Shown here one piece after another: positions 1 through 17,923 of a DNA stretch of 32,582 nt. This DNA is from a virus: IMG/VR virus record IMGVR_UViG_3300029954_000054, positions 1 to 32,582 of that record; one strand, 5' to 3'. Below the pieces are notes generated by a model. It did not search any database. It saw nothing but the letters and a program-made list of their open reading frames with translations, and was not told where the DNA came from. Position numbers and translations under genes: made by a program. Every line of letters starts with the position of its first letter. Position 1 is the stretch's first letter.

Positions 1-1
1 T

Positions 2-97
2 GTCTACGTCAACGCGGGTTCAGCTGAGGAAGCGATCCGAAAAGCGCTCCCAGAGCTGTCCGAACAGGCAAAGCGACACAACGACGAAACGCCCTAG
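2..97 (+). CDS. C-terminal end of an unrecognised early protein (partial)
   Basis: An open frame enters from the left edge and ends at TAG (95-97), giving 31 residues with a basic and acidic, probably helical end. The start lies outside the window, so no function can be assigned. The last codons read through CGAAAC, and the stop codon sits in the loop of the first hairpin of the RNA element at 85-131. This gene therefore overlaps the element, whereas the later genes stop just before theirs. The frame is supported by its position at the head of a same-strand series. Confidence 0.5.
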   Translation, partial: VYVNAGSAEEAIRKALPELSEQAKRHNDETP

Positions 98-131
98 CGG
101 CGTCCCCGGCAATCATGCCGGACCGATGAGG
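85..131 (+). ncRNA. Hammerhead-like leader element, copy 1
   Basis: Order of blocks: CGAAAC (85-90); a 5-bp hairpin with a CTAGC loop counted from the last A of GAAA; GTC (102-104); one unpaired C; a CCGGC/GCCGG hairpin (106-121) with loop AATCAT; A122; then CCGATGAGG (123-131). This is the block order of a type II (stem II open) hammerhead, but core U4 is C and no extended stem II is visible. The 3' end, GAGGAG, supplies the ribosome binding site of the gene at 141. Confidence 0.6.
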
Positions 132-140
132 AGAACTCAC

Positions 141-419
141 ATGAGCAACAACCCATGGCAGCTCTACGACACCGTAGAGGGCTGGAAGACCGCCAGCGCC
201 GAACTCGAGGCTGCTCTCAAGACCGCCGTCCGGAACGCCCATTTGGCGCGTGCCGACGGGTGGTCGGTCGCCGTGGCGACGCGGCGCTACTTCGACGAGA
301 TGGAGCCCATGCTCAGGAAATACCGCGAGTTTGGTGCCAACGACTCCGAAGGCCTTCACAGGCTGGAAGACGTCATCGACCGTGAACTCGGTTCTGGCGC
401 CAGTCGCGAACGCCTATAA
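141..419 (+). CDS. Small early phage protein, unknown function
   Basis: A 92-residue charged, mostly helical protein with no signal peptide, membrane segment or cysteine cluster; I do not recognise the family. ATG 141 is chosen because GAGGAG lies 6 bases upstream. An in-frame ATG at 126 lies inside the conserved GATGAG block of the RNA element and has no binding site of its own. The gene stops at TAA (417-419), directly before the second RNA element. It is the first complete member of the early series, all of which share this kind of leader. Confidence 0.7.
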   Translation: MSNNPWQLYDTVEGWKTASAELEAALKTAVRNAHLARADGWSVAVATRRYFDEMEPMLRKYREFGANDSEGLHRLEDVIDRELGSGASRERL

Positions 420-472
420 CGAAACCCGCCTTGGCGGGTCCGGCCTGGAATCAACCAGGCCACTGACGAAGG
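420..472 (+). ncRNA. Hammerhead-like leader element, copy 2 (intact CUGANGA core)
   Basis: It starts one base after the TAA of the previous gene. CGAAAC (420-425) leads into a GC hairpin whose tip can form a CUUG tetraloop, then GTC (438-440), one unpaired C, a 7-bp hairpin GGCCTGG/CCAGGCC with loop AATCAA, A462, and CTGACGA (463-469). The last block fits the hammerhead consensus CUGANGA exactly. The A at 470 cannot pair with C420, so stem II is not evident. AAGGA at the 3' end acts as binding site for the ATG at 483. Confidence 0.65.
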
Positions 473-482
473 ACCACGCCCA

Positions 483-704
483 ATGGCAACGAAGCTCGAA
501 GAGCTCGTGGAAATCGAGGGATTCGAAAAGGACACCCTCGCGTTCCTGCAGGCATTTTCGCACGACAGCGTCTGCCCTGCGATCTGCATGAACCCCGGCT
601 GCTCCTACACATCGGAGCTGGAGCCGGATCAGACGGAGGGCTGGTGCGAGGAATGCGACACGGGCTCGATGAAGTCCGGAATGGTCCTCGCAGGCGTCAT
701 CTGA
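483..704 (+). CDS. Small cysteine-motif protein, possible zinc ribbon
   Basis: A 73-residue protein with Cys residues in the pattern C-x3-C-x4-C in its middle and C-x2-C (CEEC) about 20 residues later. This is the spacing of a small zinc-binding ribbon, though metal binding is inference. No known family is recognised. The start follows AAGGA at the end of the preceding RNA element. The stop overlaps the next start as TGATG, so translation of the following gene is probably coupled, which fits the absence of an RNA element between the two. Confidence 0.65.
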   Translation: MATKLEELVEIEGFEKDTLAFLQAFSHDSVCPAICMNPGCSYTSELEPDQTEGWCEECDTGSMKSGMVLAGVI

Positions 705-928
705 TGTCCGCATCGATCACGCCCGAACAGCGGGCCGCTCTGAACGCCGTCGCAGACGCGATTTGCGAGGCCGTGAGGGCCACCGGGGCACATGGTGCTC
801 CCGGAGGCCACATCTACGCTGGCCTGATGTCCTCGGGCTGTACGTTGAGCCAGTACACCTCCATCATGGGGATCCTGGTGCGCAACGGGCGCCTGCGCCG
901 GGAGGGAGAACTCTACTTCCCCGGCTGA
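704..928 (+). CDS. Small winged-helix-like protein, unknown function
   Basis: A 74-residue protein. The C-terminal part (IMGILVRNGRLRREGELYFPG, written here as ILVRNGRL then RREGELYF) looks like the recognition helix and wing of a small winged-helix fold; this is a resemblance only. Its ATG overlaps the TGA of the previous gene by one base. It is the only gene of this block without a hammerhead-like leader, consistent with start by coupling. DNA binding is possible but not shown. Confidence 0.6.
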   Translation: MSASITPEQRAALNAVADAICEAVRATGAHGAPGGHIYAGLMSSGCTLSQYTSIMGILVRNGRLRREGELYFPG

Positions 929-937
929 ACGGAACCG

Positions 938-990
938 CCACGAAACCCCTGCGGGGGTCGCAACCCATCACGGTTGCAAGATGAGTGGAG
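938..990 (+). ncRNA. Hammerhead-like leader element, copy 3 (degenerate core, paired stem II)
   Basis: CGAAAC (941-946), CCCC/GGGG hairpin with TGCG loop, GTC (957-959), hairpin GCAACC/GGTTGC (960-977) with loop CATCAC, then AAGATGAG (978-985). This is the only copy where the flanks can pair as stem II: CCAC (938-941) with GTGG (985-988). On the other hand the C and U of CUGAUGA are both A here and the extra unpaired C after GTC is absent. TGGAG provides the binding site of the next gene. Confidence 0.5.
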
Positions 991-999
991 AATCACCAC

Positions 1000-1371
1000 A
1001 TGAATCAGGTAGTTACGCCCATCGACCTTGAACATCCCAGGACGATCAGGGCGGTCATCGAAGAGCTCAATGAACGAATGAAACCTCTGCTCCAGTCAAT
1101 GGAAGCGGAAGGGTTCAGCTGGCCTTGGTGGAACGAGAAAGAACCCGATCATGACGACAGAATGGTGATGCCAAAGCGTTGGTATTACCTGTCTGTCTAC
1201 GCCGTGCGCGGCAACTCCGAGGCCCATTGCGTCCACTTCGACCTCATCATCCCTCCCCTGGACGGGGAACGGACCTGCCGGCTTCACACCGTCGGCTTTA
1301 TGAAGGTCTGGGGTGGATGGAATGCGGCCTTCAGGATCGCCAACGCGGCGACATTGATCCTTCACGAATAG
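1000..1371 (+). CDS. Early phage protein, unknown function
   Basis: A 123-residue soluble protein with a tryptophan-rich stretch (FSWPWWNEKE) near residues 34-44 and a beta-rich second half. I do not recognise the family. ATG 1000 is preferred over GTG 985, because TGGAGA lies about 9 bases before ATG 1000 and GTG 985 falls in the conserved end of the RNA element. It ends at TAG (1369-1371), one base before the next element. Codon use is like its neighbours. Confidence 0.7.
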   Translation: MNQVVTPIDLEHPRTIRAVIEELNERMKPLLQSMEAEGFSWPWWNEKEPDHDDRMVMPKRWYYLSVYAVRGNSEAHCVHFDLIIPPLDGERTCRLHTVGFMKVWGGWNAAFRIANAATLILHE

Positions 1372-1372
1372 A

Positions 1373-1419
1373 CGAAACCCCCTCGGGGGTCCGGCCGGAA
1401 TCAACCGGCCACCGATGAG
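1373..1419 (+). ncRNA. Hammerhead-like leader element, copy 4
   Basis: CGAAAC (1373-1378), CCCC/GGGG hairpin with CTCG loop, GTC (1389-1391), unpaired C1392, hairpin GGCCGG/CCGGCC (1393-1410) with loop AATCAA, A1411, CCGATGAG (1412-1419). Core U4 is C. The flanks allow two base pairs of stem II (GU with AC). Unlike the others it lacks a good GGAG-type site, so GATGAG itself is the only purine-rich stretch before the ATG at 1429. Confidence 0.6.
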
Positions 1420-1428
1420 TAACACGCA

Positions 1429-1821
1429 ATGGCCGATTACAGCTTTCGTTGGACTTGCTCTTACGGCGATGAGGTAAACTACCAGGTCTATGGCGACGGA
1501 CAGCCCTACGAGGCGACCGTGCGCTGGGAGGCTTCTGATTACTTCCGAAGCATCTGGAACGGCGATGAGGCGTCCTGGCAGGCCCAGTGCGTCGCCGCCA
1601 TCGGCCTGATCCGCGGCCGCACGTGTGAGCCCATGTCGCAAGACGTGGTCGACGCGTTCAACGCCTGGCGGGCTCACGAGCACGCCCGGGGCATCGCCGA
1701 GTTGAAAGCGAACCCAGGAAAATACGGCGTCATCGACGAAAACGATGATCTCCACAAGCCCCCGCCGGTTGTGCGTGGCGCTTACTGGGGTGATGGAAAA
1801 TGGATCATCACCTCGCCCTGA
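1429..1821 (+). CDS. Early phage protein, unknown function
   Basis: A 130-residue soluble protein. The first half is beta-rich and aromatic (SFRWTCSYGDEVNYQVYG), the middle is helical (VVDAFNAWRAHEHARGIAEL) and the end returns to short strands. No recognised domain. The start is fixed by position: ATG 1429 is the first after the RNA element, although the binding site is weak. It ends at TGA (1819-1821), one base before copy 5. Probably co-transcribed with the rest of the early block. Confidence 0.7.
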   Translation: MADYSFRWTCSYGDEVNYQVYGDGQPYEATVRWEASDYFRSIWNGDEASWQAQCVAAIGLIRGRTCEPMSQDVVDAFNAWRAHEHARGIAELKANPGKYGVIDENDDLHKPPPVVRGAYWGDGKWIITSP

Positions 1822-1822
1822 A

Positions 1823-1872
1823 CGAAACTGCCTGCGGGCAGTCCCCCGGGAATCACCCCGGGACCGATGAGG
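1823..1872 (+). ncRNA. Hammerhead-like leader element, copy 5
   Basis: CGAAAC (1823-1828), TGCC/GGCA hairpin with TGCG loop, GTC (1841-1843), unpaired C1844, hairpin CCCGGG/CCCGGG (1845-1862) with loop AATCAC, A1863, CCGATGAGG (1864-1872). Core U4 is C. The first 21 bases are identical to copy 6, while the second hairpin differs by compensating changes, so the pairing and not the sequence is kept. GAGG serves the ATG at 1882. Confidence 0.6.
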
Positions 1873-1881
1873 CTGAATCCG

Positions 1882-2262
1882 ATGAAGAAGAAGATCGCAG
1901 CACCACGTTACAACGAGGTCGCACTGACCGACGTTGAACTCCCCCAGCCTGCGACGTTGACCGTCGCGGAGCTGATCGACCGCTACCCGAACAACGACAT
2001 CCTGCATTGCAGCACCAAGCGTGACACCAAGGACTATGAGGTCCTGGAGTGGCCGCAGGGTCTGTACGTCAAGGACAAGCTGTCCGGCGGCGACACCATG
2101 GCGCGCGAGTATCTCGGTCGCCTCGGTCACTTCCCAAGCCTGGAGCAGGCGCGCGCTTTTATCCGGCGTCGCAAGGAGGCGATCGTCGCCGCCAGGAACG
2201 GGGGCGCGGACATCGACACGGTTGTCGATGCGGGAGAGGTAAAGCTGCTGACAGCAGCTTGA
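1882..2262 (+). CDS. Early phage protein, unknown function
   Basis: A 126-residue basic-start protein (MKKKIAAPRYNEV) with a predicted helix rich in arginine and lysine near residues 85-105 (SLEQARAFIRRRKEAIVAAR). No family recognised; nucleic-acid binding is conceivable from the basic helix but unproven. ATG 1882 has GAGG 9 bases upstream, while the in-frame ATG at 1867 lies in the GATGAGG block of the RNA element. The stop TGA (2260-2262) directly abuts copy 6. Confidence 0.7.
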   Translation: MKKKIAAPRYNEVALTDVELPQPATLTVAELIDRYPNNDILHCSTKRDTKDYEVLEWPQGLYVKDKLSGGDTMAREYLGRLGHFPSLEQARAFIRRRKEAIVAARNGGADIDTVVDAGEVKLLTAA

Positions 2263-2313
2263 CGAAACTGCCTGCGGGCAGTCCCCCTGGAATCAACCAG
2301 GGACAGATGAGGG
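2263..2313 (+). ncRNA. Hammerhead-like leader element, copy 6
   Basis: CGAAAC (2263-2268), TGCC/GGCA hairpin with TGCG loop, GTC (2281-2283), unpaired C2284, hairpin CCCTGG/CCAGGG (2285-2302) with loop AATCAA, A2303, CAGATGAGGG (2304-2313). Core U4 is A. Compared with copy 5 the second stem changed on both strands and stays paired. GAGGG is the binding site for ATG 2323. Confidence 0.6.
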
Positions 2314-2322
2314 CCATGACAA

Positions 2323-2790
2323 ATGCTGGTGGACGACTTACGCGCCCAGGTGGCAATTTGCCTGATGGAGCGCAACTCCAGCCTGAAGGCTTCCGACGTG
2401 GAAGACTTCGTGGAGAGCTACCTCGACACCGCCGTGGAGAACGTCCGGATCGACGATCCCGACGATCCCGACGCGGAAATGTCCGACTATATCCCCGACG
2501 ATTGTCGCGGATGGCACGACGAGACGATCGACGCAGCCATACGGCAAGGCGTCGATTTCCTGTCGGATTGCTGCGTCATGATCGACTGCTGCAATCACAG
2601 CCGCGGCTTTCCCATGCGGGACCTGGCGCAGATGTTTTTCTACTCCAGGAACGGCTACGGCTCCGGCGAGGGTTTTTGGCCCGAGGGCGGCGGCTGCGGG
2701 CACTGCTCGGGGCCGCTCCAGACCTACTGTGAAAATTCCGGCAAGGCGAACCTGACCATGAACAGGGCCAGGTTTCTCGTGTGGGAATAA
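2323..2790 (+). CDS. Cysteine-rich early protein, unknown function
   Basis: A 155-residue acidic protein with many cysteines: a cluster DCCVMIDCC near residues 86-94, then CGHC and a further C near residues 125-136. The CGHC plus paired cysteines suggests a metal-binding or disulfide-rich C-terminal half; the N-terminal half is helical and acidic (repeat of DDPDDPDAE). I do not recognise a family. ATG 2323 is 9 bases after GAGGG; an out-of-frame ATG at 2316 leads nowhere sensible. It ends with TAA (2788-2790) shortly before copy 7. Confidence 0.7.
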   Translation: MLVDDLRAQVAICLMERNSSLKASDVEDFVESYLDTAVENVRIDDPDDPDAEMSDYIPDDCRGWHDETIDAAIRQGVDFLSDCCVMIDCCNHSRGFPMRDLAQMFFYSRNGYGSGEGFWPEGGGCGHCSGPLQTYCENSGKANLTMNRARFLVWE

Positions 2791-2795
2791 TAATT

Positions 2796-2850
2796 CGAAA
2801 CGGCTTCGGCCGTCCGCCCGGCAATCACGCCGCGGCACTGATGAATAGGA
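2796..2850 (+). ncRNA. Hammerhead-like leader element, copy 7 (intact CUGAUGA core)
   Basis: CGAAAC (2796-2801), GGC hairpin closed by a UUCG tetraloop, GTC (2812-2814), unpaired C2815, hairpin GCC-CGGC / GCCG-c-GGC (2816-2836) with one bulged C and loop AATCAC, A2837, CTGATGA (2838-2844). All core bases of the hammerhead consensus are present, except that the C2815/A2837 pair is a mismatch and stem II is not closed. AGGAGA at 2847-2852 serves the ATG at 2861. Confidence 0.65.
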
Positions 2851-2860
2851 GAGACCGACA

Positions 2861-3607
2861 ATGGACTCTTTTGAATTCGCAAGCTTTCGTTTTCCGCGCA
2901 AAATTCCACAGCTCGTCCCGACGTCCTATTGCGGCACCCCAGAGGTGTTCAAGCGGCCGGCGGGCAGGAAGCACCACTACAAGGTGAGCGGCAGCTACTA
3001 CGGCTCGCCAACGCCGATCACGAAGGAAAACCCGAAGACCGGAGACGGCTTCTATCTCGATTGCGATTTCCACCCAGGTCTGCGCTGGACCTGGTGCGAC
3101 AAGATCGCAGACATCCGCATCGACCATCGGGGCTGGTGGACGAACGACCTCGGCGACGGCGAGACAATCCGTGGCGTCGTTTTTCGTCTTCCGCACGGCC
3201 GGGGATTCCTGGCCGGACACGCGATGGGCGAAGGGATGTTGTCAACCTTGTGTTGCAAGGTCTGGGACAACGAGAGAGATGCCGCCTACGAGGCCGACCG
3301 CATGGCGGAGCGCGCCGCGCAGAAGGAGCGGGATTACCAGCGTGCCTGGCGGGCCGGCATGGACGCCGCCGATCTCGAGACCACGATCCGGGACTTCCGG
3401 ACCGAGCTGTTGGCTCTGATCCGGGAGTTCCGGGAGTTTAGCCGCCTGGGTCGCGTCTACCCGACCTTGCGCGCCTTCCTGATGGAAGACATACGCGAGC
3501 TCCTCGGGAGCATCCGCAAGGCGAGGAAAGAGCGGGACGAGCTGAAGGCCGATTACTCGGCCTGGCAGCCAGACGCGTATTACGAAGGCTACAGGTGTGG
3601 GGGATAA
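2861..3607 (+). CDS. Last gene of the early block, unknown function, coiled-coil segment
   Basis: A 248-residue protein. Residues 1-130 are beta-rich and aromatic. Residues about 140-225 are strongly charged helices (AERAAQKERDYQRAW; KARKERDELKAD), likely coiled coil. The end is AYYEGYRCGG. No family recognised. ATG 2861 follows AGGAGA by about 8 bases. It is the largest gene of the early series and lies directly before the terminator at 3622-3667, so it closes the transcription unit. Confidence 0.75.
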   Translation: MDSFEFASFRFPRKIPQLVPTSYCGTPEVFKRPAGRKHHYKVSGSYYGSPTPITKENPKTGDGFYLDCDFHPGLRWTWCDKIADIRIDHRGWWTNDLGDGETIRGVVFRLPHGRGFLAGHAMGEGMLSTLCCKVWDNERDAAYEADRMAERAAQKERDYQRAWRAGMDAADLETTIRDFRTELLALIREFREFSRLGRVYPTLRAFLMEDIRELLGSIRKARKERDELKADYSAWQPDAYYEGYRCGG

Positions 3608-3621
3608 CCCCCACCACGACA

Positions 3622-3667
3622 CGAAACAGCCCACCCGGCAGGAAAATCCTGCCGGGTGGGCTTTTTT
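3622..3667 (+). terminator. Rho-independent terminator built on a CGAAAC element start
   Basis: A 15-bp perfect hairpin (3629-3643 with 3647-3661, loop AAA) is followed by six T (3662-3667), a textbook intrinsic terminator. It begins with CGAAAC at 3622-3627, shortly after the stop of the last early gene, exactly where the seven RNA elements begin. It therefore looks like an eighth element whose first hairpin was lengthened into a terminator. Confidence 0.9.
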
Positions 3668-3705
3668 GCGTCATCGGCACCGGATGTGTTTTTCCATTTT
3701 TCGCG

Positions 3706-3734
3706 TTGCGCATCACATTCCTCCGTGATACGGC
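3706..3734 (+). promoter_or_regulatory. Candidate promoter and operator of the recombination operon
   Basis: TTGCGC (3706-3711), a 17-base spacer and TACGGC (3729-3734) make a weak sigma70-type promoter just after the terminator and before the first gene of the next operon. The spacer holds an inverted repeat TCAC-N8-GTGA (3713-3728), a natural place for a repressor. The same half-sites with the same spacing recur at 17959-17974. The -10 match is poor, so the promoter call is tentative; the repeat is seen directly. Confidence 0.4.
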
Positions 3735-3766
3735 TGGCCGCTTCGTGAGCACCGAAAGTTGAAATC

Positions 3767-4117
3767 ATGCGCAATCTGACTGACAAGTTCGTCTCTCTGG
3801 AGCGACGCGACCAGGTCCCCCGCCCGAGCGACACGCCGGTGCCCGGCACCTATTTGGTGCGCCTCGTCCGCAAGGGCCCTTTGATCCCCGCGCGCATCGA
3901 CTGCGTCGGCGGGCTGTGGTCGGTCACCATCAACGGTGTCCTGCAGGGGCCGGCGCAAAGCGAGCCGTTCCTGGCGGCCGGCATGGACCGCGCCTTCCTT
4001 GGGCTGCGGGTGCCGGAGGCGGAATACGACCGCCGGCTGGGCTGGAAGGACATCCCGGGCCACCCCAACGCCACTCCCAACAGGCCGATCGATTTCAACC
4101 AAATCCCCGTGCTCTGA
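3767..4117 (+). CDS. Conserved-looking phage protein, unknown function
   Basis: A 116-residue soluble, beta-rich protein (GTYLVRLVRKGPLIPARI; GGLWSVTINGVL). It is the first gene of the plus-strand recombination operon, 150 bases after the terminator. The binding site before ATG 3767 is weak (GAAAG). No function is assigned. Its place before the ERF gene suggests a role in early DNA metabolism or its control, but this is context only. Confidence 0.7.
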   Translation: MRNLTDKFVSLERRDQVPRPSDTPVPGTYLVRLVRKGPLIPARIDCVGGLWSVTINGVLQGPAQSEPFLAAGMDRAFLGLRVPEAEYDRRLGWKDIPGHPNATPNRPIDFNQIPVL

Positions 4118-4132
4118 AAGGACAGACATTCC

Positions 4133-4966
4133 ATGCCCGACATCTATCCGGGGGCCGGTCACAACAGCGGCGCCTGTGTCGCCCCCGATATCGATCTCCT
4201 GATCGATCCGGAAATTCTGACCGAGCAATGGGCGGCGGACCACGCGGCCGGTCTCGAGCGGCGCGATGCGCTGCTGGCGCGGGTCGACCGCTTCCGCGAG
4301 GAAAACCCCGCCGGCGTGACCACCGAGGCCGAGGCCGAGTTCGCGTCCGACCTCGCCGCCCAGATCGCCTCCGCGGCCACGCCGGCGGCCACGCTGCACG
4401 AGATCAAGAAGGCGCCCTTTCTGGCGGCCGGGCGTGCCGCGGACGCCTTCTTCATGCACGGGTGGTCCGCCCGGCTACAGGCGGCCGTCGGCTATTTCAC
4501 GGGCAACGGGGCCAAGGGCCAGCCTTTGGGCGTGCTGACCAAATACCAGCGCGAAAAGGCCGAGACGGAACGTCTCCTCCGTGAGGAGGCAGCGAAACAG
4601 GCGGCTGAGGAGGCCGCACAGGCGGCGGCAGCGGCGGCGGCGGCCAAGAGCGCCGATCTCGACGACAACGCCCTCCAGCAAGCGGAGATGGCCGAGCTGG
4701 CGGCTGCGGCGGCCCGTGCGCCGGTGGCCGACCTCTCGCGCACGCGGGGCCCGTACGGCTCCACCACCAGCCTGCGGGCGAACTGGACCTGGGAGGGCGT
4801 GGATCTGATGGAGCTCGTCAAGGCGGTGGCGGAGGGACGCGCCCCGCTCAATTACCTGACCTACAACGTCCCCGTGATTGGCGGGGCCGTGCGCCCCAAG
4901 GACGGGGTCCGGGAAATCCCGGGCATCAAGATCTGGAACGCCTCCAGCTCCCAGGTGCGCAAGTGA
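4133..4966 (+). CDS. Alanine-rich phage protein upstream of ERF, unknown function
   Basis: A 277-residue protein. It starts with PGAGHNSG, a short motif often seen at the start of alphaproteobacterial phage proteins. Residues about 60-105 are helical; residues 140-200 are a long alanine- and glutamate-rich helix, likely coiled coil. A compact C-terminal part ends in IPGIKIWNASSSQVRK. AAAGGACAG precedes ATG 4133. Its stop overlaps the next start (GTGA), so it is coupled to the annealing protein and may be an accessory recombination factor; that role is inferred from position. Confidence 0.7.
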   Translation: MPDIYPGAGHNSGACVAPDIDLLIDPEILTEQWAADHAAGLERRDALLARVDRFREENPAGVTTEAEAEFASDLAAQIASAATPAATLHEIKKAPFLAAGRAADAFFMHGWSARLQAAVGYFTGNGAKGQPLGVLTKYQREKAETERLLREEAAKQAAEEAAQAAAAAAAAKSADLDDNALQQAEMAELAAAAARAPVADLSRTRGPYGSTTSLRANWTWEGVDLMELVKAVAEGRAPLNYLTYNVPVIGGAVRPKDGVREIPGIKIWNASSSQVRK

Positions 4967-9990: not shown

Positions 9991-10220
9991 AATACGACCG
10001 GAAACTCATCGCGCGCCAGAACGCCTTGGCGCGGGAGATTTGCCTCGCGAGCGGGTTCCTCCCCGACGCACCCATACGGCCCGACGGCAATGAGCCGCGC
10101 TGGATGGAGTTTCTCGGCGAGGCGGTCGTCCAGCTGCGGATGCTCGACCAATACGCGCGCGAGCAGGCGGAGCTCGACGCGCTCGAGGCCGGGGCCCGGG
10201 CCGGGGACATCGGTGGCTGA
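9987..10220 (+). CDS. Small helical phage protein, unknown function
   Basis: A 77-residue, largely helical protein with many charged residues (KYDRKLIARQNALAREICL; AREQAELDALEAGARAG). ATG 9987 overlaps the methyltransferase stop, and its own end overlaps the next GTG start by 8 bases. No domain is recognised. The tight coupling suggests it is made in step with the methyltransferase. Confidence 0.65.
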   Translation: MKYDRKLIARQNALAREICLASGFLPDAPIRPDGNEPRWMEFLGEAVVQLRMLDQYAREQAELDALEAGARAGDIGG

Positions 10221-11073
10221 CGGGACCCCTATCAGCTGGACGGACGCGACGTGGAATCCCATCACCGGGTGCTCCGTCGTGAGCCCGGGCTGCACAGGAT
10301 GTTATGCCATGCGGTTGGCCGGCACGCGCCTGCGTCACCACCCGAGCCGCAGCGGGCTCACCAAATTCGCCAAAGGCGGCCCGGTCTGGACCGGCGATGT
10401 CCGCTGGAACGAGCAATGGGCCGCACAGCCGCTGGGGTGGACCCGGCCGCGCCGGATCTTTGTGGTTGCGCACGGCGATCTGTTCCACGAGGGGGTGCCG
10501 GTGGAGTGGATCGACCGGGTATGGGCCGTGATGGCGGCCTCGCGCGAGCACACGTTCCAGGTGCTGACCAAGCGGGCGCATATCATGCGCGCATACGTCT
10601 CGACGCCGACCCGGGCGCGCGTGCGCGAGGCGATGCGGACCCTGCAGGGCGAGGATGTGCCGGACCCCGATTTCCTGATGCGGCCCGGCGGCTGGCCGCT
10701 GCCAAACGTCTGGCTCGGCGTCAGCGTGGAGGACCAGATGCGTGCCGAGGAGCGTATCCCGCTGCTGCGGGCGACGCCGGCGGCGCTGCGCTATCTGTCG
10801 GTCGAGCCGATGCTGGGTCCGGTGTGCCCGTGGACCGCGTCGATCGACGCCCGCACCGCGCTCCTGACGGGCGCGCACTGGGCGCCGGAGATCGACATCG
10901 ACTGGGTGATTTGCGGCGGCGAATCAGGCCGCCGTGCGCGCGACATGGATCCTGGCTGGGCCCGCGAATTGCAGGCCGCGTGCCTGGCGCGGGCGGTCCC
11001 GTTCCATCTGAAGCAGATGGCGCGGCGGGCGCCGATCCCGACGGATCTGGCTGTCCAGGAGTTCCCGCCATGA
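10213..11073 (+). CDS. DUF5131 family protein (phage Gp37/Gp68-like)
   Basis: A 286-residue protein with the family signature at the start: ISWTDATWNPITGC, then VSPGCTGCYA. It continues with VVAHGDLFHEGVP, FQVLTKRAH, NVWLGVSVEDQ and VICGGESGRRARDMDP, all typical of this phage family. The clustered cysteines resemble an iron-sulfur site, and a radical-SAM-like relation has been suggested by the motif layout; the reaction is not known. The GTG start overlaps the upstream gene by 8 bases and the stop overlaps the next start. Confidence 0.85.
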   Translation: MADGTPISWTDATWNPITGCSVVSPGCTGCYAMRLAGTRLRHHPSRSGLTKFAKGGPVWTGDVRWNEQWAAQPLGWTRPRRIFVVAHGDLFHEGVPVEWIDRVWAVMAASREHTFQVLTKRAHIMRAYVSTPTRARVREAMRTLQGEDVPDPDFLMRPGGWPLPNVWLGVSVEDQMRAEERIPLLRATPAALRYLSVEPMLGPVCPWTASIDARTALLTGAHWAPEIDIDWVICGGESGRRARDMDPGWARELQAACLARAVPFHLKQMARRAPIPTDLAVQEFPP

Positions 11074-11267
11074 CCCGAACCGAGAACCAGCACTCCGACC
11101 GGACCCGCGACAAGATACGCAAATTATGGGCGGAGGGATTGTCGGTCGGTGCCATCGCGCAGCAGTTGGGCCTGGAAAAACCGGTCGTGAGCGGGCTGGT
11201 CTGCCGCATGAAGGACCTGCCGCGCCGTCCCAGTCCGATCAAGCGCAAGCCAGGCCCGGTGCCGTGA
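11070..11267 (+). CDS. GcrA-like helix-turn-helix protein
   Basis: A 65-residue protein: RDKIRKLWAEGLSVGAIAQQLGLEKPVVSGLVCRMKDLPRRPSP. The helix-turn-helix and its LWAEGLS...IA..LG wording match the N-terminal DNA-binding part of GcrA, the alphaproteobacterial cell-cycle regulator that senses adenine methylation. The C-terminal RNA polymerase contact region of full GcrA is missing. Close linkage to a phage methyltransferase makes a methylation-linked regulator plausible. ATG overlaps the DUF5131 stop (ATGA). Confidence 0.65.
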   Translation: MTRTENQHSDRTRDKIRKLWAEGLSVGAIAQQLGLEKPVVSGLVCRMKDLPRRPSPIKRKPGPVP

Positions 11268-11644
11268 CGAGCTTTGTCCCGAGCCTGTCGACCACGATCG
11301 ACTTTCTCTACACCAACCACGCCGGCCGGACGCAGCGGCGCCGCGCCCGCGTGATGTACGTGTATTGGGGGCCGACGCCCTACCACCCGATCGCGCAATG
11401 GATCTGCCGGGCCGAGGATCTCGACCGGCACGCGCCCCGGGATTTCGCGATGCGCGACATGAAGGACGTCCGCATTCACGTGCTATCAATCGAGGAAAGG
11501 ATTCCCAGTGACCGACCGCCCGATCCTGTTCAGCCCGTCGATGGTGCAGGCGATCCTGCGGGAAATCGCCCAGCCAGGCGCCGGAAAAACCGTCACACGG
11601 CGCAAGGCCAACAGCCCGGTGCTGCGCCTGACCACGCGGGGTGA
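11264..11644 (+). CDS. Small phage protein, WYL-like fold possible; overlaps next gene
   Basis: A 126-residue frame starting at GTG 11264 (GTGA overlap). Residues 1 to about 80 look like a conserved unit: IDFLYTNHAGRTQRRRARVMYVYWGPTPYHPIAQW, ending in FAMRDMKDVRIH; this resembles small WYL-type phage proteins, at low confidence. The last 46 residues are basic and proline-rich and lie over the start of the next gene (137 bases shared). That tail may have arisen by loss of an earlier stop near 11508. Confidence 0.6.
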   Translation: MTSFVPSLSTTIDFLYTNHAGRTQRRRARVMYVYWGPTPYHPIAQWICRAEDLDRHAPRDFAMRDMKDVRIHVLSIEERIPSDRPPDPVQPVDGAGDPAGNRPARRRKNRHTAQGQQPGAAPDHAG

Positions 11645-12023
11645 CACGCTCTGGGTGCGCGAGGCCTGCGTGACCGACGACCGGCAGCAGCGGGCGGTCG
11701 CCTACCTGGCCGATGGCGAGATCGACCCGTCGGTCACCAATGACTACGCGGCCCCGCGCAACGCGTTCCACATGCCGCGCTGGGCGTCCCGACTCACCCT
11801 GTCGGTGACGGCGACCCGCGTGGAGCGGCTGCAGGCCATCACCGAGGCCGATGCACGGGCCGAGGGGGTGGAGAGCGTGGCCCATTTCCAGGCGCTGTGG
11901 GACGTGCTGCACGACCCGGGCGCGTGGGATCAGAACCCCGAGGTGATCGTCATCCGGTTCCGCCCGCGGCTCGGCAATATCGACGTCCTGGCGGCAGCGC
12001 GCGACGCGCTGGTCCCGTCGTGA
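11508..12023 (+). CDS. ASCH/PUA-like phage protein
   Basis: A 171-residue protein of a widespread phage type: PILFSPSMVQAILREI then KTVTRRK near the start, GDTLWVREACV, HMPRWASRLTLSVTATRVERLQAITEADARAEGV, and a C-terminal FQALWDVL ... NPEVIVIRFRPR. The layout is that of ASCH-like (PUA-related) RNA- or nucleotide-binding proteins; the cellular target is unknown. The GTG start has GAGGAAAGG 8 bases upstream, so it has its own strong initiation even though the upstream frame runs over it. Confidence 0.75.
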   Translation: MTDRPILFSPSMVQAILREIAQPGAGKTVTRRKANSPVLRLTTRGDTLWVREACVTDDRQQRAVAYLADGEIDPSVTNDYAAPRNAFHMPRWASRLTLSVTATRVERLQAITEADARAEGVESVAHFQALWDVLHDPGAWDQNPEVIVIRFRPRLGNIDVLAAARDALVPS

Positions 12024-12226
12024 GCTACAGCCTGCCGACCGTCGGCCATGAGGTGCAGGTCGAGCAACGGGGGCGCCGGGTCACGCTGTGTTTTGTCGCC
12101 GCCACGCAGGCAAAAGCCGACGCGCTGGCGGAGTATCTCGTCGCTCAGCTGAGGGACGGGACGCTGCAGATCACGGTGATGGGCAAGCCGACCAGCGTTT
12201 CGAGGGATTTTCCGCGTGAGCACTAA
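12020..12226 (+). CDS. Small phage protein, unknown function
   Basis: A 68-residue protein that starts at GTG 12020, overlapping the previous stop as GTGA. It has short strands (EVQVEQRGRRVTLCFVAAT), a helix (AKADALAEYLVAQLRDG) and a final strand (LQITVMG). No family is recognised. Its end overlaps the next start by 11 bases. Confidence 0.65.
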   Translation: MSYSLPTVGHEVQVEQRGRRVTLCFVAATQAKADALAEYLVAQLRDGTLQITVMGKPTSVSRDFPREH

Positions 12227-12404
12227 TGCCGAATGGGAGCATTATTCCGTGCCGCCAAAAACCGCGTTTGGCGTCTGGACCCGGGTCTATCGCCTGCGTG
12301 TGCCGGGGGGCGATCTCTACCGGACCGAGCGTGGCGAGACGCATGACGGCGACGACAATATCCTCCACATGGCGGTCACTTTTGTCCCGGAGCGCGTGCG
12401 CTGA
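12216..12404 (+). CDS. Small phage protein, unknown function
   Basis: A 62-residue, beta-rich protein (TAFGVWTRVYRLRVPGGDLYRTERG). GTG 12216 is chosen because it keeps the operon's overlapping pattern; a later in-frame start is not available close by. TGA at its end overlaps the next ATG (TGATG). The function is unknown. Confidence 0.6.
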   Translation: MSTNAEWEHYSVPPKTAFGVWTRVYRLRVPGGDLYRTERGETHDGDDNILHMAVTFVPERVR

Positions 12405-12685
12405 TGGAACAGGAACACTGGCATCTGTCGGTGGTGTGGGTCGACGGCGGGCGGGAGCCGCAATGCAAGCCCAACCCCGCCTATCCGGACGGGATCGATG
12501 TCGAGGTGCCCGGCCCGACGGGGCAATCCTGTTTCACCCGCCTCGCCTATCCGGCGAAGCGTTGCGGCTACTACGAGGTGCGCTGCGCCATCTGCCGCTA
12601 CCGGGTGGCCGTGACCACGGCCGGCCGGCCGGATGATCCCCGCTCGGTCCGGATCGGGTGCCTGCAGCTGGCCGGAACAACCTGA
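12404..12685 (+). CDS. Conserved cysteine-containing phage protein
   Basis: A 93-residue protein with cysteines in a pattern typical of a common phage family: CKPNPAYPDGIDV near the start, then SCFTRLAYPAKRCGYYEVRCAICRYRVAVTTAGRPDDPRSVRIGC. The RCG...C-x2-C part looks like a zinc site. The C-terminal TTAGRPDDPRSV is the most conserved-looking stretch. Its role is not known. The start overlaps the previous stop. Confidence 0.75.
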   Translation: MEQEHWHLSVVWVDGGREPQCKPNPAYPDGIDVEVPGPTGQSCFTRLAYPAKRCGYYEVRCAICRYRVAVTTAGRPDDPRSVRIGCLQLAGTT

Positions 12686-12703
12686 AGCGAAGGACGGCAC
12701 GTC

Positions 12704-12874
12704 ATGTGGACCATTCTCATCATCATTCTCATCGTCCTGTTGCTGGGCGGCGGGGGCTACGGATTCCGCTCGGGCTGGGGCGGTGGGGGGTTCAACGCCA
12801 CCACCGGCGGTGTCGGGCTGCTCGGGATCGTGGTGATCGTCCTGCTGATCCTGCTGGCGCTCGGCCGCATCTGA
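12704..12874 (+). CDS. Very small glycine-rich membrane protein (DUF3309-like)
   Basis: A 56-residue protein with two hydrophobic segments (residues 3-15, TILIIILIVLLL, and 38-54, LLGIVVIVLLILLAL) joined by a glycine-rich loop containing GYGFRSGWGGGGF. This plan matches DUF3309-type small membrane proteins known in alphaproteobacteria. Start ATG 12704 follows AAGGACG. It sits in an 18-base gap after the previous gene and 3 bases before the next. It would lie in the inner membrane; its function is unknown. Confidence 0.7.
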   Translation: MWTILIIILIVLLLGGGGYGFRSGWGGGGFNATTGGVGLLGIVVIVLLILLALGRI

Positions 12875-12877
12875 GCG

Positions 12878-13078
12878 ATGGCCGAGGACACGCCCGGGTG
12901 GTGGCGCTACCGGGTGACGATCCGCAAGATCGGCCGCGACAGGCGGGAGCGGATCATCATGGTGCTGACGGCGTCGCAGCAGGCGGCGGAGGACTGCGCG
13001 CTGCGTCAGGTGCCGCCGGCGGAGCGGGCGGACTGGCGGGTTTTAGAAAGCGTACGGGAGGCAAACGATGGCGAATGA
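12878..13078 (+). CDS. Small basic phage protein, unknown function
   Basis: A 66-residue protein, WWRYRVTIRKIGRDRRERIIMVLTASQQAAEDCALRQV. A basic strand pair is followed by a helix. It overlaps the excisionase-like gene by 11 bases. No family is recognised. Its place directly before xis-int suggests late membership of the early operon. Confidence 0.6.
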   Translation: MAEDTPGWWRYRVTIRKIGRDRRERIIMVLTASQQAAEDCALRQVPPAERADWRVLESVREANDGE

Positions 13079-13376
13079 TGACCTTTCGCGGACGATTCCC
13101 CAGGTCGCGCTCCGCTGGCAATGCAGTCAGCGCACTGTCTACAATCTCATCGAGTCCGGCGAGATCGGATTTATCCGCGTCCGCAAACTCATTCGCATTC
13201 GCCAATCGGACATCGAGGCATACGAGGCACGACAATGGACAGCACCCGCAGCAAAGACATCAGATACTCGCTCACACCACGCGGCAATCGTCTCTATGTC
13301 ACGTGGTGGGAGGGGGGCAAACAATACCGCGTTTCGACGGGGACAAGCGACCGCGTCAAAGCCGAAACCTATCTGA
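13068..13376 (+). CDS. xis: Excisionase-like MerR/HTH_17 protein
   Basis: A 102-residue protein. Residues about 8-56 form an HTH_17-type domain: IPQVALRWQCSQRTVYNLI, then GFIRVRKLIRIRQSDIEAYE, as in phage excisionases that bend attachment-site DNA and steer the integrase. Residues 57-102 are unstructured-looking and are encoded in sequence that also encodes the start of the integrase in another frame (142 bases shared). GGGAGG lies 9 bases before ATG 13068. The gene name is by role and position, not by sequence identity. Confidence 0.75.
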   Translation: MANDDLSRTIPQVALRWQCSQRTVYNLIESGEIGFIRVRKLIRIRQSDIEAYEARQWTAPAAKTSDTRSHHAAIVSMSRGGRGANNTAFRRGQATASKPKPI

Positions 13377-14296
13377 GACAGTTCCAGCACGGGCGCGAGA
13401 CACCGCTGCCGCCGGCCGAGCCGACAGTCGCCGATCTGCTTGCCGGCTATCTCGCTGACCGCACCCCGCGCGTCGCCTCTCCTGAGACCCTGCGCCACGC
13501 CTGCACCGCCCTGAGCCGGCATCTCGGGTACATGCTGCCCAGCACGCTGTCGCGCCAGGTGTGCCGGACCTACCATATGAGCCGGCGCACCGAGGGCTGG
13601 CAGGCTCCGGGCAGCAAGCGGCGCAAGCCGATCGGCGCCGGCACCATCATACGCGAGCTGGTGACCCTGCGTGCCGCGTTGCGCTGGGGGCTCGGCGAGG
13701 GCTGGATCACCGTTGAGCCTTATATCGAGCTCCCGAAGGCGCCGGCGGCGAAGACCCGGTGGCTGACCCGAGAGGAAGCGGAGCGGCTCCTGGGGGCGAC
13801 CGACGCCCCGCATGTGTATCTCTTCATGATGCTCGGCCTCTACACGGGGGCACGGATGGGGGCGCTGATCGAGTTGCGCTGGGACCAGGTCGACTTCACG
13901 GCGGAGCGGATCGACTTCGGCGCCGGGAAGGGGAACAAACGCCGCGCGATCGTGCCGATGACCGTTGCGTTGCGCACCGCTCTGGCGGAGGCCTACCCGG
14001 CGCGGACCACCGACCGGGTGATCGAGTATGGCGGGCTGCCGGTGCGGAGCGTCCGCAAAGGGGTCGCCTCGGCCTGCCAGCGGGCCGGGCTGCCCGGGGT
14101 GGGGCCGCATACCCTGCGTCACACGGCGGCCAGCTGGATGGTCCAGGCGGGGGTTTCTGCCGAGGAGGTCGGGGTATTTCTGGGCAACAGCGCGGCGATC
14201 GTGGAGCGTGTGTATGGCCATTTCAGCCCGGAGTATCTGGCCGACGCGACCCGAGCACTGTCTCAGCCGCCGGCGCGGGTGCGGCGGAATCCCTAG
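13235..14296 (+). CDS. int: Tyrosine-family phage integrase
   Basis: A 353-residue site-specific recombinase. The N-terminal arm and core-binding region (residues 1 to about 170) is followed by a catalytic domain with GARMGALIELRW (first Arg near 206), GKGNKRR (Lys near 231), HTLRHTAASW (His-x-x-Arg near 292-295) and RVYGHFSPEY (nucleophilic Tyr near 327). ATG 13235 is chosen because the protein then starts with a typical strand pair (SLTPRGNRLYVTWW). It lies beside the attP core (14340-14383) and overlaps the excisionase-like gene, the usual lysogeny module. Confidence 0.93.
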   Translation: MDSTRSKDIRYSLTPRGNRLYVTWWEGGKQYRVSTGTSDRVKAETYLRQFQHGRETPLPPAEPTVADLLAGYLADRTPRVASPETLRHACTALSRHLGYMLPSTLSRQVCRTYHMSRRTEGWQAPGSKRRKPIGAGTIIRELVTLRAALRWGLGEGWITVEPYIELPKAPAAKTRWLTREEAERLLGATDAPHVYLFMMLGLYTGARMGALIELRWDQVDFTAERIDFGAGKGNKRRAIVPMTVALRTALAEAYPARTTDRVIEYGGLPVRSVRKGVASACQRAGLPGVGPHTLRHTAASWMVQAGVSAEEVGVFLGNSAAIVERVYGHFSPEYLADATRALSQPPARVRRNP

Positions 14297-14308
14297 CCAC
14301 TGGCCAGG
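14291..14308 (+). repeat. Palindromic repeat left of attP core
   Basis: CCCTAGCCACTGGCCAGG covers the integrase stop codon and just beyond. It matches 16 of 18 bases of the perfect palindrome at 14468-14485 on the other side of the attP core. Each copy is close to self-complementary. Candidate arm-type or accessory protein site. Confidence 0.6.
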
Positions 14309-14339
14309 AATCACCCCTTGGAAGCTTCGGCTAACCCAT

Positions 14340-14383
14340 TGATGCTGCTGGGTAGAATCGAACTACCGCCGCTCCCTTACCAA
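14340..14383 (-). other. attP: attP core: 3' part of a tRNA-Thr(GGU) gene
   Basis: Read on the minus strand, the stretch is a tRNA from the anticodon loop to the 3' end: loop TTGGTAA with anticodon GGT (14379-14381), stem half GGGAG, variable CGGC, T arm GGTAG-TTCGATT-CTACC, acceptor half CAGCAGC, discriminator A (14343) and TCA in place of CCA. No 5' half (acceptor GCTGCTG, D arm) precedes it, so it is not a working gene. Phages that insert in tRNA genes carry such a 3' copy to restore the gene. Phage-type genes on both sides suggest an unsplit attP. Confidence 0.85.
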
Positions 14384-14420
14384 AATAGGTATCCCCCCTG
14401 CAGGCCTTGATATCTAACAC

Positions 14421-14429
14421 TTTTTTTTT
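14421..14429 (+). other. T9 tract in the attP region
   Basis: Nine consecutive T lie between the attP core and the right palindrome, in a locally AT-richer part of a GC-rich genome. No hairpin precedes them, so a terminator is not supported. Such tracts in attP arms often favour bending or IHF-type binding. The rest of 14384-14467 shows no gene. Confidence 0.35.
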
Positions 14430-14467
14430 GCATACACCTGCACGATTCGCCTTCTGTTCACTGTGTT

Positions 14468-14486
14468 CCCTAGCCAGTGGCTAGGG
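14468..14486 (+). repeat. Perfect palindrome right of attP core
   Basis: CCCTAGCCAGTGGCTAGGG is a 19-base perfect palindrome around a central G. Its near copy lies at 14291-14308, so the two flank the tRNA-like core at 32 and 85 bases. Possible integrase arm or excisionase site. Confidence 0.6.
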
Positions 14487-14516
14487 AGCACTCCCTCACG
14501 CAAAACAGGGAGTGCT
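14487..14516 (+). repeat. 10-bp inverted repeat next to the palindrome
   Basis: AGCACTCCCT and AGGGAGTGCT are perfect complements separated by 10 bases, directly following the palindrome. No T run follows on either strand, so I do not call a terminator. It may be an operator for the gene at 14624 or part of the attP arm. Confidence 0.5.
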
Positions 14517-14623
14517 CCGCAAAAGCATAAAAGTCACCGCCAACCCACGGATGCTGAAAGGTTATCGCGTTCTATTGCTGCGTGGGCTTGACCTTGGTCC
14601 CGATCTGCAGCCACACAAGACGT

Positions 14624-15358
14624 GTGACAACCGCGTCCCGTGCGATCAACGACATGGCGGAGGTGATGGGCGTTCTTCCCGCCACGGCGTTCCGTGCCGC
14701 GCGCGCGCTCCGGGAACGCAGCATCAGCCTCTGGCCCCAGGGATCACAGGGCCGGCGGCAGGAGGCGCACGTGACGGTCGGGCACTGCGTCAACCTGGCG
14801 CTCGCGATCGCCACCGCCGACCCGATGACAGACGCGCCGAACACTGTGCGGCGCTATCGATCATTGGTCGAAGGCGAACTGCGGATCTTTGATCACGACC
14901 GGCGCGACACGCCGCGGGTCACGCGCGAGTGCGTCGCAACCCCTGGAGTCGGTACTCTCGCGCCGTTGTTCAGCAACTACGGAAACACCCTGGGCAAGCA
15001 TCTCGAGGGACTTCTGATGGCACTATCGGACACCGGGAATCAGGCCCAGGGTGATCTGCGCCACGTCGAGGAATTCGAGTTGGAGATCACGGTGGGCCCG
15101 TTACCCCAGGCAGTGCTCGTCTTCGACCTCTGGACGGGCGACGCGGGCTATCGCACCGAACGACAGACCTACACGCCGCCGCGCCCGGTCCAGGCCGCGC
15201 CCGGCATGGTCACAGTGAAGACCATTCCCTTCAGCGTCTTTGAGGTGATGGCGGCCTTGCCTGGACCAGTCAGCCCCGGATCACCGAACCGGCGACAGGG
15301 TGACCGGGGTTTTCTGCACCCGGACGACGCCGCTTCCCGTCCCCATGTTCAGGGTTGA
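14624..15358 (+). CDS. DNA-binding-like protein beside attP, possible lysogeny regulator
   Basis: A 244-residue protein from GTG 14624; GTG 14582 and ATG 14654 are alternatives in frame, and no start has a strong binding site. The N-terminal 60 residues (INDMAEVMGVLPATAFRAARALRERS, then GRRQEAHVTVGHCVNLALAIA) look like a helix-turn-helix followed by a helical unit seen in lysogeny-region proteins of alphaproteobacterial phages. Residues about 130-215 are beta-rich (FELEITVGPLPQAVLVFDLW). It stands alone on the plus strand with its own terminator, next to attP, which fits a repressor or immunity role; this is inference. Confidence 0.6.
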   Translation: MTTASRAINDMAEVMGVLPATAFRAARALRERSISLWPQGSQGRRQEAHVTVGHCVNLALAIATADPMTDAPNTVRRYRSLVEGELRIFDHDRRDTPRVTRECVATPGVGTLAPLFSNYGNTLGKHLEGLLMALSDTGNQAQGDLRHVEEFELEITVGPLPQAVLVFDLWTGDAGYRTERQTYTPPRPVQAAPGMVTVKTIPFSVFEVMAALPGPVSPGSPNRRQGDRGFLHPDDAASRPHVQG

Positions 15359-15430
15359 TTTTCAAGCTGCGAGGGGAGAGGATCGGATTACCACATTCGA
15401 TCTCTCATCCTCACGAAATGGCGTACTAGG

Positions 15431-15456
15431 CCGGCCCCATGGGTCGGCTTTTTTTT
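15431..15456 (+). terminator. Rho-independent terminator after the 14624 gene
   Basis: CCGGCCC and GGGTCGG pair (7 bp with one G-U, loop CAT, 15431-15447), followed by C and a run of eight T (15449-15456). It lies 73 bases after the plus-strand stop and only a few bases beyond the end of the converging minus-strand gene. No T run exists for the minus strand, so it acts for plus transcripts. Confidence 0.85.
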
Positions 15457-15459
15457 GGC

Positions 15460-16047
15460 TCAGCGTCCGAGCGTCGCCGTCAGCCGCATCTGCGACGGCC
15501 GATAGGCCGGGTTGCGTGTCACCTGGGCGTCGCTGACCAGAGGCGCGTCGAGCTCCAGCCACTCCCCGGTCGCGGACTTTGCCGGCGGGATCAGCAGCAG
15601 GCCCTCGCCAGGGATCGCGTGGCGGACCAGCGCCAGCAGCCCATGGGTCGCGCACAGGCGCACCAGATAAGCCCGCAATGCCGGGTCGCGGTGGGCCAGC
15701 GGGCGCTTCGGGTCGGCCCAGATCTGGGCCACGTCCAGCGGCTCTCCGTTCGCCATGATCGTGCAGAGCATCGGATCGATGATGTAGCCGGCGAGGTCGG
15801 GGCGCCGCAGTCCGGCCTCCACCACCCCGGGATCGAACAGCCAGCGGCAGTTCCACGCCGCGCAGCCGCTCGGCCGATCGGCATAAATGCCGCAGCCACC
15901 GGCGCGCAGGTGCGTGCATTTGATGCCGGCCGGCTTGTGCCTGGTCGCCAGTTCAACCGGCACATGGGTGCAGCAGGCGTGGCAACTCCCGCAGCTCCGC
16001 CCGCGTATCGGCAGCCCGAAGATCTGCCAGCCTGGCTCCTCAGCCAT
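15460..16047 (-). CDS. YkgJ-type cysteine-cluster protein
   Basis: A 195-residue protein. The start MAEEPGWQIFGLPI leads to CGSCHACCTHVPVE, then KCTHLRAGGCGIYADRPSGCAAWNCRW, the cysteine pattern of the YkgJ (zinc/iron-chelating) family. The second half contains GLLALVRHAIPGEGLLLIPP and an end near NPAYRPSQMRLTATLGR. The metal role is established for the family only as likely chelation; substrate unknown. ATG 16047 overlaps the previous gene by 8 bases. It is the last gene of the 15.4-17.9 kb minus-strand unit. Confidence 0.8.
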   Translation of the reverse strand: MAEEPGWQIFGLPIRGRSCGSCHACCTHVPVELATRHKPAGIKCTHLRAGGCGIYADRPSGCAAWNCRWLFDPGVVEAGLRRPDLAGYIIDPMLCTIMANGEPLDVAQIWADPKRPLAHRDPALRAYLVRLCATHGLLALVRHAIPGEGLLLIPPAKSATGEWLELDAPLVSDAQVTRNPAYRPSQMRLTATLGR

Positions 16048-16276
16048 CGTTGGGCACCACTTTTCCGGCATACATGGTCGCCCGCAAAGATACGGGGTCA
16101 GCCTTCCACCGATGGACCTTGACCAGCCCGCGACGCTCAAGCCGTCGGCACGCGGCTTCGTCCTCTTGCGCGATCTCCAGCACAGTCTCCCATTCGGGCA
16201 ACGATGCAAGCAGCCGCAGTTCGTCTTGCGGCAGAGGAAGGGCAAATTCGGGTAGGTCCGGGAAAAGGTCAGACAT
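16040..16276 (-). CDS. Small winged-helix-like protein
   Basis: A 78-residue protein: LPQDELRLLASLPEWETVLEIAQ, then EDEAACRRLERRGLVKVHRWKADP. The helix-strand-hairpin order with LERRGLVKV is like a winged helix of a DNA-binding protein. The start ATG 16276 lies 5 bases after the upstream stop. Function is not known; DNA binding is inferred from fold resemblance only. Confidence 0.65.
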   Translation of the reverse strand: MSDLFPDLPEFALPLPQDELRLLASLPEWETVLEIAQEDEAACRRLERRGLVKVHRWKADPVSLRATMYAGKVVPNDG

Positions 16277-16281
16277 CCCGA

Positions 16282-16773
16282 CTACGCGGCCGCCTGGATG
16301 AGCTGGGCGGCCAGACCAGCGCACTCCGCCTCGACGTCGGCGAGCGTGCGGTAGTGCCGGGGCCATGCCGACCAGGTTGGGACATGCTGGAGATCGCGCG
16401 GCATGGCTTCGATGGCCGGCATCAGGTCGTTCAGGTGCGCACAGTCGAAGCCGAGCCACCAGACATCGTCGGATTCGCCCGCGGCGGGCACGTGGCACAC
16501 GCCCTCCTCCTCCGGCGTATGCATACAGGCGCCGGAGAAGTTCAGGCCGCCATGGACGTCGAGCCAATCGAGGTCACGGGCAGCCGCCTGATACATCGGA
16601 TGGTCCTTGCCAACCCCGACATAGCCGCACCAGGCGCCAGTGGCGTCCGAGCGCACGGCGAGGCAGGGCAGACCGGTCGCGCCGTCCTGCCACTGGCGCT
16701 TGTCCGGCTCCGCAAGCCAGGGGCCGTCGCCCCAGGCGGATTTATCGAGCCGATGGTATTCCTTCGTCTCCAC
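16282..16773 (-). CDS. Conserved phage protein, unknown function
   Basis: A 163-residue protein of a family often seen in phages of proteobacteria: EYHRLDKSAWGDGPWLAEPDKRQWQD, TGLPCLAVRSDATGAWCGYVGV, LDVHGGLNFSGAC and WWLGFDCAHLNDL. Histidines and cysteines spaced through the middle may bind metal, but no activity is established. GTG 16773 follows GAGGAGG at 6 bases, a strong site, and overlaps the preceding gene by 32 bases. Confidence 0.75.
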   Translation of the reverse strand: METKEYHRLDKSAWGDGPWLAEPDKRQWQDGATGLPCLAVRSDATGAWCGYVGVGKDHPMYQAAARDLDWLDVHGGLNFSGACMHTPEEEGVCHVPAAGESDDVWWLGFDCAHLNDLMPAIEAMPRDLQHVPTWSAWPRHYRTLADVEAECAGLAAQLIQAAA

Positions 16774-16975
16774 GATCGTCCTCCTCGTCGGGTGGTATGA
16801 CCCGCCCGTTTGGCATGACGCGGTCGAACGTGTCAGGCCACTCGCTGCGACGCGACAGGGTCACATAGACCGGGCCCCAATCCGTCTCCATCAACAGCAG
16901 CTCGAACTCGTCCATGTAGGACGTCGCCCACCAGCGGATGCTGCGCACCATCAGCCACCAGGCGAGCCATCTCAC
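16742..16975 (-). CDS. Small tryptophan-rich protein, unknown function
   Basis: A 77-residue protein. Residues 1-20 are hydrophobic and rich in tryptophan (RWLAWWLMVRSIRWW), perhaps a membrane-surface helix; the rest is polar with a proline/acidic end (PNGRVIPPDEEDDRGDE). GTG 16975 overlaps the upstream stop as GTGA. An alternative start at the internal Met (residue 21, MDEFELLL) would remove the hydrophobic segment. No family is recognised. Confidence 0.6.
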   Translation of the reverse strand: MRWLAWWLMVRSIRWWATSYMDEFELLLMETDWGPVYVTLSRRSEWPDTFDRVMPNGRVIPPDEEDDRGDEGIPSAR

Positions 16976-17903: not shown

Positions 17904-17923
17904 GATGCCCTTCCGGTTGTCGG

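Follow-up and report, generated by a model that had tools for sequence, protein, structure and literature searches.

What are the two-hairpin RNA elements that precede successive early genes in this viral DNA, and what might they do to the transcript that carries them? The window, that is, the whole stretch of DNA analyzed (32,582 nucleotides), comprises all of the 32.6-kb virus record IMGVR_UViG_3300029954_000054, in which an earlier note, made from the letters alone, had described seven serial hammerhead-like elements as either a new hammerhead variant or hammerhead-derived leaders with another role.

Layout of the early operon

In the first 3.7 kb of the window, eight small genes, none with an assigned function in PHROGs and Pfam, make up a rightward early operon, and recombination and replication genes (exonuclease, Erf-like annealing protein, SSB, and dUTPase) lie 3' of it. 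The features of this region are as follows.

2..97, +, 3' end of the upstream gene, which runs off the contig (read from the sequence)
85..129, +, copy 1; core CCGAUGA; predicted cut after 104; overlaps the upstream gene end (stop 95-97)
141..419, +, gene after copy 1, no assigned function
420..469, +, copy 2; core CUGACGA, intact; predicted cut after 440; without stem II
483..704, +, gene after copy 2, no assigned function; partial homologue in Roseobacter phage CRP-6
704..928, +, gene whose start overlaps the stop of 483-704 (coupled pair); not preceded by an element
941..984, +, copy 3; core AAGAUGA; predicted cut after 959; 4-bp stem II; G-C in place of C.A
1000..1371, +, gene after copy 3, no assigned function
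1373..1418, +, copy 4; core CCGAUGA; predicted cut after 1391; 2-bp stem II
1429..1821, +, gene after copy 4, no assigned function
1823..1870, +, copy 5; core CCGAUGA; predicted cut after 1843
1882..2262, +, gene after copy 5, no assigned function
2263..2310, +, copy 6; core CAGAUGA; predicted cut after 2283
2323..2790, +, gene after copy 6, no assigned function
2796..2844, +, copy 7; core CUGAUGA, intact; predicted cut after 2814; bulged C in the stem I 3' strand; without stem II; 26.0 bits to RF02276
2861..3607, +, gene after copy 7; phrog_33651, a phage family without assigned function; homologues in Caulobacter, Burkholderia, and Aeromonas phages
3628..3666, +, intrinsic terminator closing the operon (16-bp stem and T run)

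One element occupies each of the gene gaps in the operon, in agreement with the claim that one stands ahead of each independently started early gene, and the sole gene lacking an element (704-928) overlaps its neighbor's stop codon. Stop codons lie 0, 12, 1, 1, 0, and 5 nt ahead of copies 2 to 7, respectively, that of the gene before copy 1 (95-97) is inside the copy, and the downstream Shine-Dalgarno sequence begins at or just past the last core base in most copies. Since the window opens within that upstream gene, the array may extend off the contig. As to the host, the protein matches to Caulobacter, Burkholderia, and Aeromonas phages only hint at Pseudomonadota. Separately, the terminator region (3599-3738) scored 31 to 34 bits against the Caulobacter RNAs ftsZ-DE and CrfA, below their cut-offs, which is probably just a GC-rich hairpin.

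Evidence for the array and its two stems

The pattern CGAAAC-N(4-20)-GUC-N(14-30)-GANGA occurs seven times in the window, on the + strand at the positions first reported (85, 420, 941, 1373, 1823, 2263, and 2796), versus 0.38 times (sd 0.69, maximum 3) in dinucleotide-preserving shuffles. A covariance model search of both strands of the window returned exactly these seven copies and nothing else; the model was built from the window copies and five from a relative, and the window copies match it by construction. Among the 12 copies from the two phages, all 13 pairs of stems III and I were kept in every sequence (100% of cells paired), 9 of the 13 were changed on both sides, and covariation reached 0.73 versus 0.15 when shuffled and ≤0.12 when the partners were slid, sliding by one column leaving ∼41% of cells paired. 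This seed alignment was N-padded, with two bulged bases omitted, and a model-made 14-copy alignment agrees with it. Minimum free energy folds of all single window copies gave the two predicted hairpins, with z scores from -1.8 to -4.0. Stems III and I are real, and copies within one array are related, so that copy counts are counts of non-independent events.

Probable hammerhead identity and core conservation

The block order GAAA(C) - stem III - GUC - stem I - (C)NGANGA is that of the type II hammerhead, with stem II at the open ends. In the Rfam run that the earlier note had proposed, Hammerhead_II (RF02276) was the sole ribozyme family matching these elements and did so in several copies (copies 7, 5, and 1, at 26.0, 23.4, and 18.1 bits), all of them below the cut-off of 37, and the search of the window reported no score for the remaining four; because of these scores, the elements are not filed as RF02276.

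The core details given in the earlier note all held. CUGANGA is intact in two of the seven copies (2 and 7); U4 is lost in the other five, position 4 being C in copies 1, 4, and 5 and A in copy 6, while copy 3, the only one to lose C3, reads A3 A4. G5, A6, G8, A9, G12, A13, A14, and C17 are intact in all seven, and, copy 3 aside, variation is confined to U4, N7, and the 10.1-11.1 pair. The core positions reported to tolerate change in hammerheads are U4, position 7, and C17, the last of these not to G (PMC4075628). Across 41 copies from the window and two further viral contigs, designated G001 and G002, there is no variation in GAAA, G5, A6, A9, or the U preceding H17, each of the four letters occurs at N7, and position 17 is C in 38, A in 2, U in 1, and never G; conservation in the G001 and G002 counts is inflated, since the descriptor demanded GAAA, GAN[GA]A, and UH, and a model search without these requirements still found 40 such elements.

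The seven copies of G001 (IMGVR_UViG_3300029954_000116) also stand in series, share the AAUCA loop and, in most cases, the C.A mismatch of the window copies, and likewise leave stem II open. Here U4 is kept in 7/7 copies and CUGANGA is mostly intact. In the 14 copies of both contigs, C3-G8 appears as C-G in 11, U.G in 1, U-A in 1, and A.G in 1, so that the tertiary 3-8 pair is standard in 13/14, one of these being U-A, and the exception is window copy 3. U3-A8 forms have been reported active (PMC3088659). The G001 copy with U3-A8 in place of C3-G8 has a near-identical sister with U3.G8, and we read the former as compensation specific to a folded hammerhead core and the latter as a step toward it. 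The G001 genes are unrelated to those of the window, so the RNA, not the gene, is common to both operons; one apparent window-G001 protein match stemmed from translation of the element and did not recur when the gene itself was used. Three G001 array genes (L167, 1839-2603, minus strand) look paralogous, with related N-termini, and each has its own element. Taken together, covariation, core conservation that tracks the tolerance rules, the canonical G001 sister copies, and the U3-A8 swap support the original assignment to hammerheads in type II order.

Departures from type II and comparison with known systems

The elements resemble RF02276 (PMC3088659) in block order, in loop-closed stems III and I, in the GAAA/GUC/GANGA core, and in their clustered occurrence in bacterial and phage gene gaps. 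Type II hammerheads have a stem II of two or more base pairs, rarely of just one, and a pseudoknot between loop I and the 3' tail is found in most type II. In contrast, as the earlier note had seen, stem II in the window has 4 bp in copy 3 and 2 bp in copy 4, with one G-C in copies 1, 5, and 6 and none in copies 2 and 7, so that five of the seven copies fall short of a 2-bp stem. Complementarity between loop I and the 3' tail gave no pseudoknot above shuffles in the window (mean longest complement, 2.33 versus 2.05 shuffled), whereas a canonical array (L345) gave 4.50 versus 2.81 in the same test, indicating that the pseudoknot is present there; the usual docking route of stems I and II is therefore missing in the window. 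U4 is degenerate, and the U-A pair after GUC is replaced by a C1.1·A2.1 mismatch in 6/7 copies (copy 3 has G-C), this or another nonstandard pair occurring in 11/14 copies of the window and G001. Loop I is a conserved AAUCA, with AUCA invariant in all copies of both phages. Pairing of this AUCA with the core UGAU/GAU was rejected, since the ≥3 bp possible in 14/14 copies would break the core and follow from fixed letters. With scores below the Rfam gathering score, these features support the proposal of a new variant, namely, a stem-II-poor hammerhead without the pseudoknot and with an AAUCA loop. The open ends of type II are the two strands of stem II and coincide here with the upstream stop codon and the downstream Shine-Dalgarno sequence, which is probably why stem II is short or absent; it is suggestive, as a single case, that copy 3, with the longest post-stop gap (12 nt), has the 4-bp stem II.

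Other known hammerheads resemble these elements in part. A metagenome hammerhead with a one-base-pair stem II (PMC3088659, Fig. 4) also nearly lacks this stem but depends on a 6-bp pseudoknot, of which none was found in the window. Viroid hammerheads (PMC3088659, PMC6155905) share the U4C core and, in places, ill-defined helices but differ in block order and biology, and type SGC hammerheads (PMC10085705) likewise have a hammerhead core in an unusual layout but are a noncircular permutation with four stems and an almost always intact core.

Arrays in other viral contigs

Serial arrangement is not exceptional, contrary to the earlier note, given that clusters were published in 2011 (PMC3088659) and that larger arrays occur in other viral contigs. 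Among 50 IMG/VR records, nearly all picked for holding a type II-like site, RF02276 matched 43 at E ≤ 0.01, with up to 11 matches per record (11 in G005, 11 in G002, and 9 in G435). Type II arrays are common in IMG/VR, and seven copies are a large number, not a record. The largest array met in this analysis, more extreme than that of the window, is in G002 (IMGVR_UViG_3300012974_000540, 93 kb), where ∼27 type II hammerhead-like elements stand in series over 22-46 kb (22480-45790, minus strand; L377/L378), one per small gene and nearly all 6 to 16 nt upstream of a start codon. In 27 copies, position 3 is A in 16, U in 7, and C in 4, U4 is kept in 26/27, and two elements score above the Rfam cut-off. 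A canonical array of at least 10 copies, two of them U4C, with loop I CCGUUANGCGG, was also observed in IMGVR_UViG_3300038412_000035 (11 RF02276 matches in the record).

The stem-II-poor AAUCA family was found by strict patterns in two viral contigs, the window and G001, among the matches listed. In the pattern scan of genome contigs, none of the matches listed (at least 119 stretches) passed the stem and core filter convincingly; model R1 had no match in 385 alphaproteobacterial genomes under strict filters, a search run with no positive control; and blastn of copy 2 against phages and plasmids gave chance matches only.

Proposed mechanism and alternative explanations

We consider it fairly likely that these elements cut the early polycistron, as a stem-II-poor hammerhead variant, into hairpin-ended single-gene mRNAs. 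Each active copy would cut after C17 of GUC, the upstream gene's mRNA then ending in stop codon - stem III hairpin - GUC>p (cyclic phosphate) and the downstream gene's mRNA starting with HO-N1.1 - stem I hairpin - (C)NGANGA - Shine-Dalgarno - AUG. The polycistron would become single-gene mRNAs (one carrying a translation-coupled pair) with a hairpin at both ends. mRNA ends of the 5'-hydroxyl/stem I and stem III/cyclic-phosphate kinds resist RNase E and 3' exonucleases, and the products should evade 5'-monophosphate-dependent RNase E and 3' exonucleases. This reading is supported by one strong terminator after the last gene and by the finding of no promoter-like site in 1-4200 of the window. 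Predicted activity probably varies, being highest for copies 2 and 7, reduced by U4C in copies 1, 4, and 5, and weakest for copies 6 (U4A) and 3 (A3 A4), of which the last two may be inactive.

There are precedents for such a role. In the proposal of Perreault et al. (2011), hammerheads clustered in phages divide transcripts into pieces as long as an operon or a gene, and tandem bacterial and prophage hammerheads cleave ∼2-kb polycistrons in vitro and, for one set, in Escherichia coli (PMC3088659). In the clusters of Azorhizobium, Agrobacterium, and Clostridium scindens, several ribozymes likewise flank single small genes, and cutting of phage transcripts into gene-length mRNAs was proposed, but the tested sets were small (three in Agrobacterium) and were carried on ∼2-kb fragments, whereas the window has seven variant copies in a row (PMC3088659). 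The role of hammerheads in phages has been called unknown (PMC6155905, PMC10085705), and these arrays make the mRNA-processing idea directly testable, because an element sits in nearly every gene gap, flush with the stop codon and the Shine-Dalgarno sequence. Moreover, the U4-relaxed array of the window and the C3-relaxed array of G002 offer natural experiments on the extent to which selection preserves the core, and a seven-copy stem-II-poor family together with a ∼27-copy array would widen the limits of the class.

Most of what weakens the cutting reading also favors its main rival, in which hammerhead-derived, largely noncatalytic leaders keep their hairpin pair at gene boundaries, for mRNA protection or as a site for an AAUCA-reading phage or host protein, while catalysis decays. 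U4 is lost in 5/7 copies and C3 in 1/7, and natural cores deviate almost never (PMC3088659, PMC10085705); position 3 is A in 16/27 copies of G002, and C3 mutations cost >100-fold (PMC4075628); stem II is nearly gone, the pseudoknot is missing, Rfam scores fall below the cut-off, and the invariant loop I AUCA of two phages has no assigned partner. Nevertheless, residues needed only for catalysis or a folded core are intact in every window copy, the losses fall on the tolerant U4 (if changes were independent, five out of six would fall on a single one of the 14 sites with a probability of ∼1e-4, which is indicative only, the copies being related), and G001 keeps U4 in 7/7 and compensates at 3-8. 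Such leaders are, in our view, unlikely, though a serious contender. Rather less probable are ribosome-gated hammerheads, which would cut only lightly translated RNA, with translation deciding which genes become separate mRNAs: as the 5' open end is the upstream stop codon and the 3' open end the downstream Shine-Dalgarno sequence, ribosomes that terminate or initiate there would unfold or obstruct the ribozyme, and, if this were true, the missing stem II, the AAUCA loop, and the relaxed U4 would be adaptations to slow, competed cleavage. That the hairpins are unrelated to hammerheads, acting in RNase III/E processing or translational coupling and resembling the core by chance, would account for two strong GC-rich hairpins per gene gap and for a GANGA strand adjoining the Shine-Dalgarno sequence but is very improbable, given that two operons with unrelated genes carry all three hammerhead blocks in the right order in 7/7 copies each, and given the C3-G8 to U3-A8 change and the restriction of Rfam ribozyme matches to hammerhead II.

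Other repeated elements in gene gaps

An 85% match over 46 nt between copy 1 and Planktothrix phage Pag-Yong1 was set aside as a chance hairpin (13.5 bits, E 0.16 to the model). In the same phage (OL906435.1, 12610-17160), another element, TGACCCTCGCG[CT]CCGC-hairpin-GCGTGGCGATGGCCAG, is repeated in gene gaps and precedes several small genes in a row; this element is not a hammerhead, and no convincing Rfam match was found in 10000-20000. Four further loci (L182, L191, L192, and L198) matched the pattern and were rejected as type I hammerheads with CUGAUGA upstream. At these loci, serial type I hammerheads (CUGAUGA - stem II - GAAAC - stem III - GUC) lie between genes, and a conserved CGGGATGCAA(TCA) and CAACGGAGAA leader comes after each of them.
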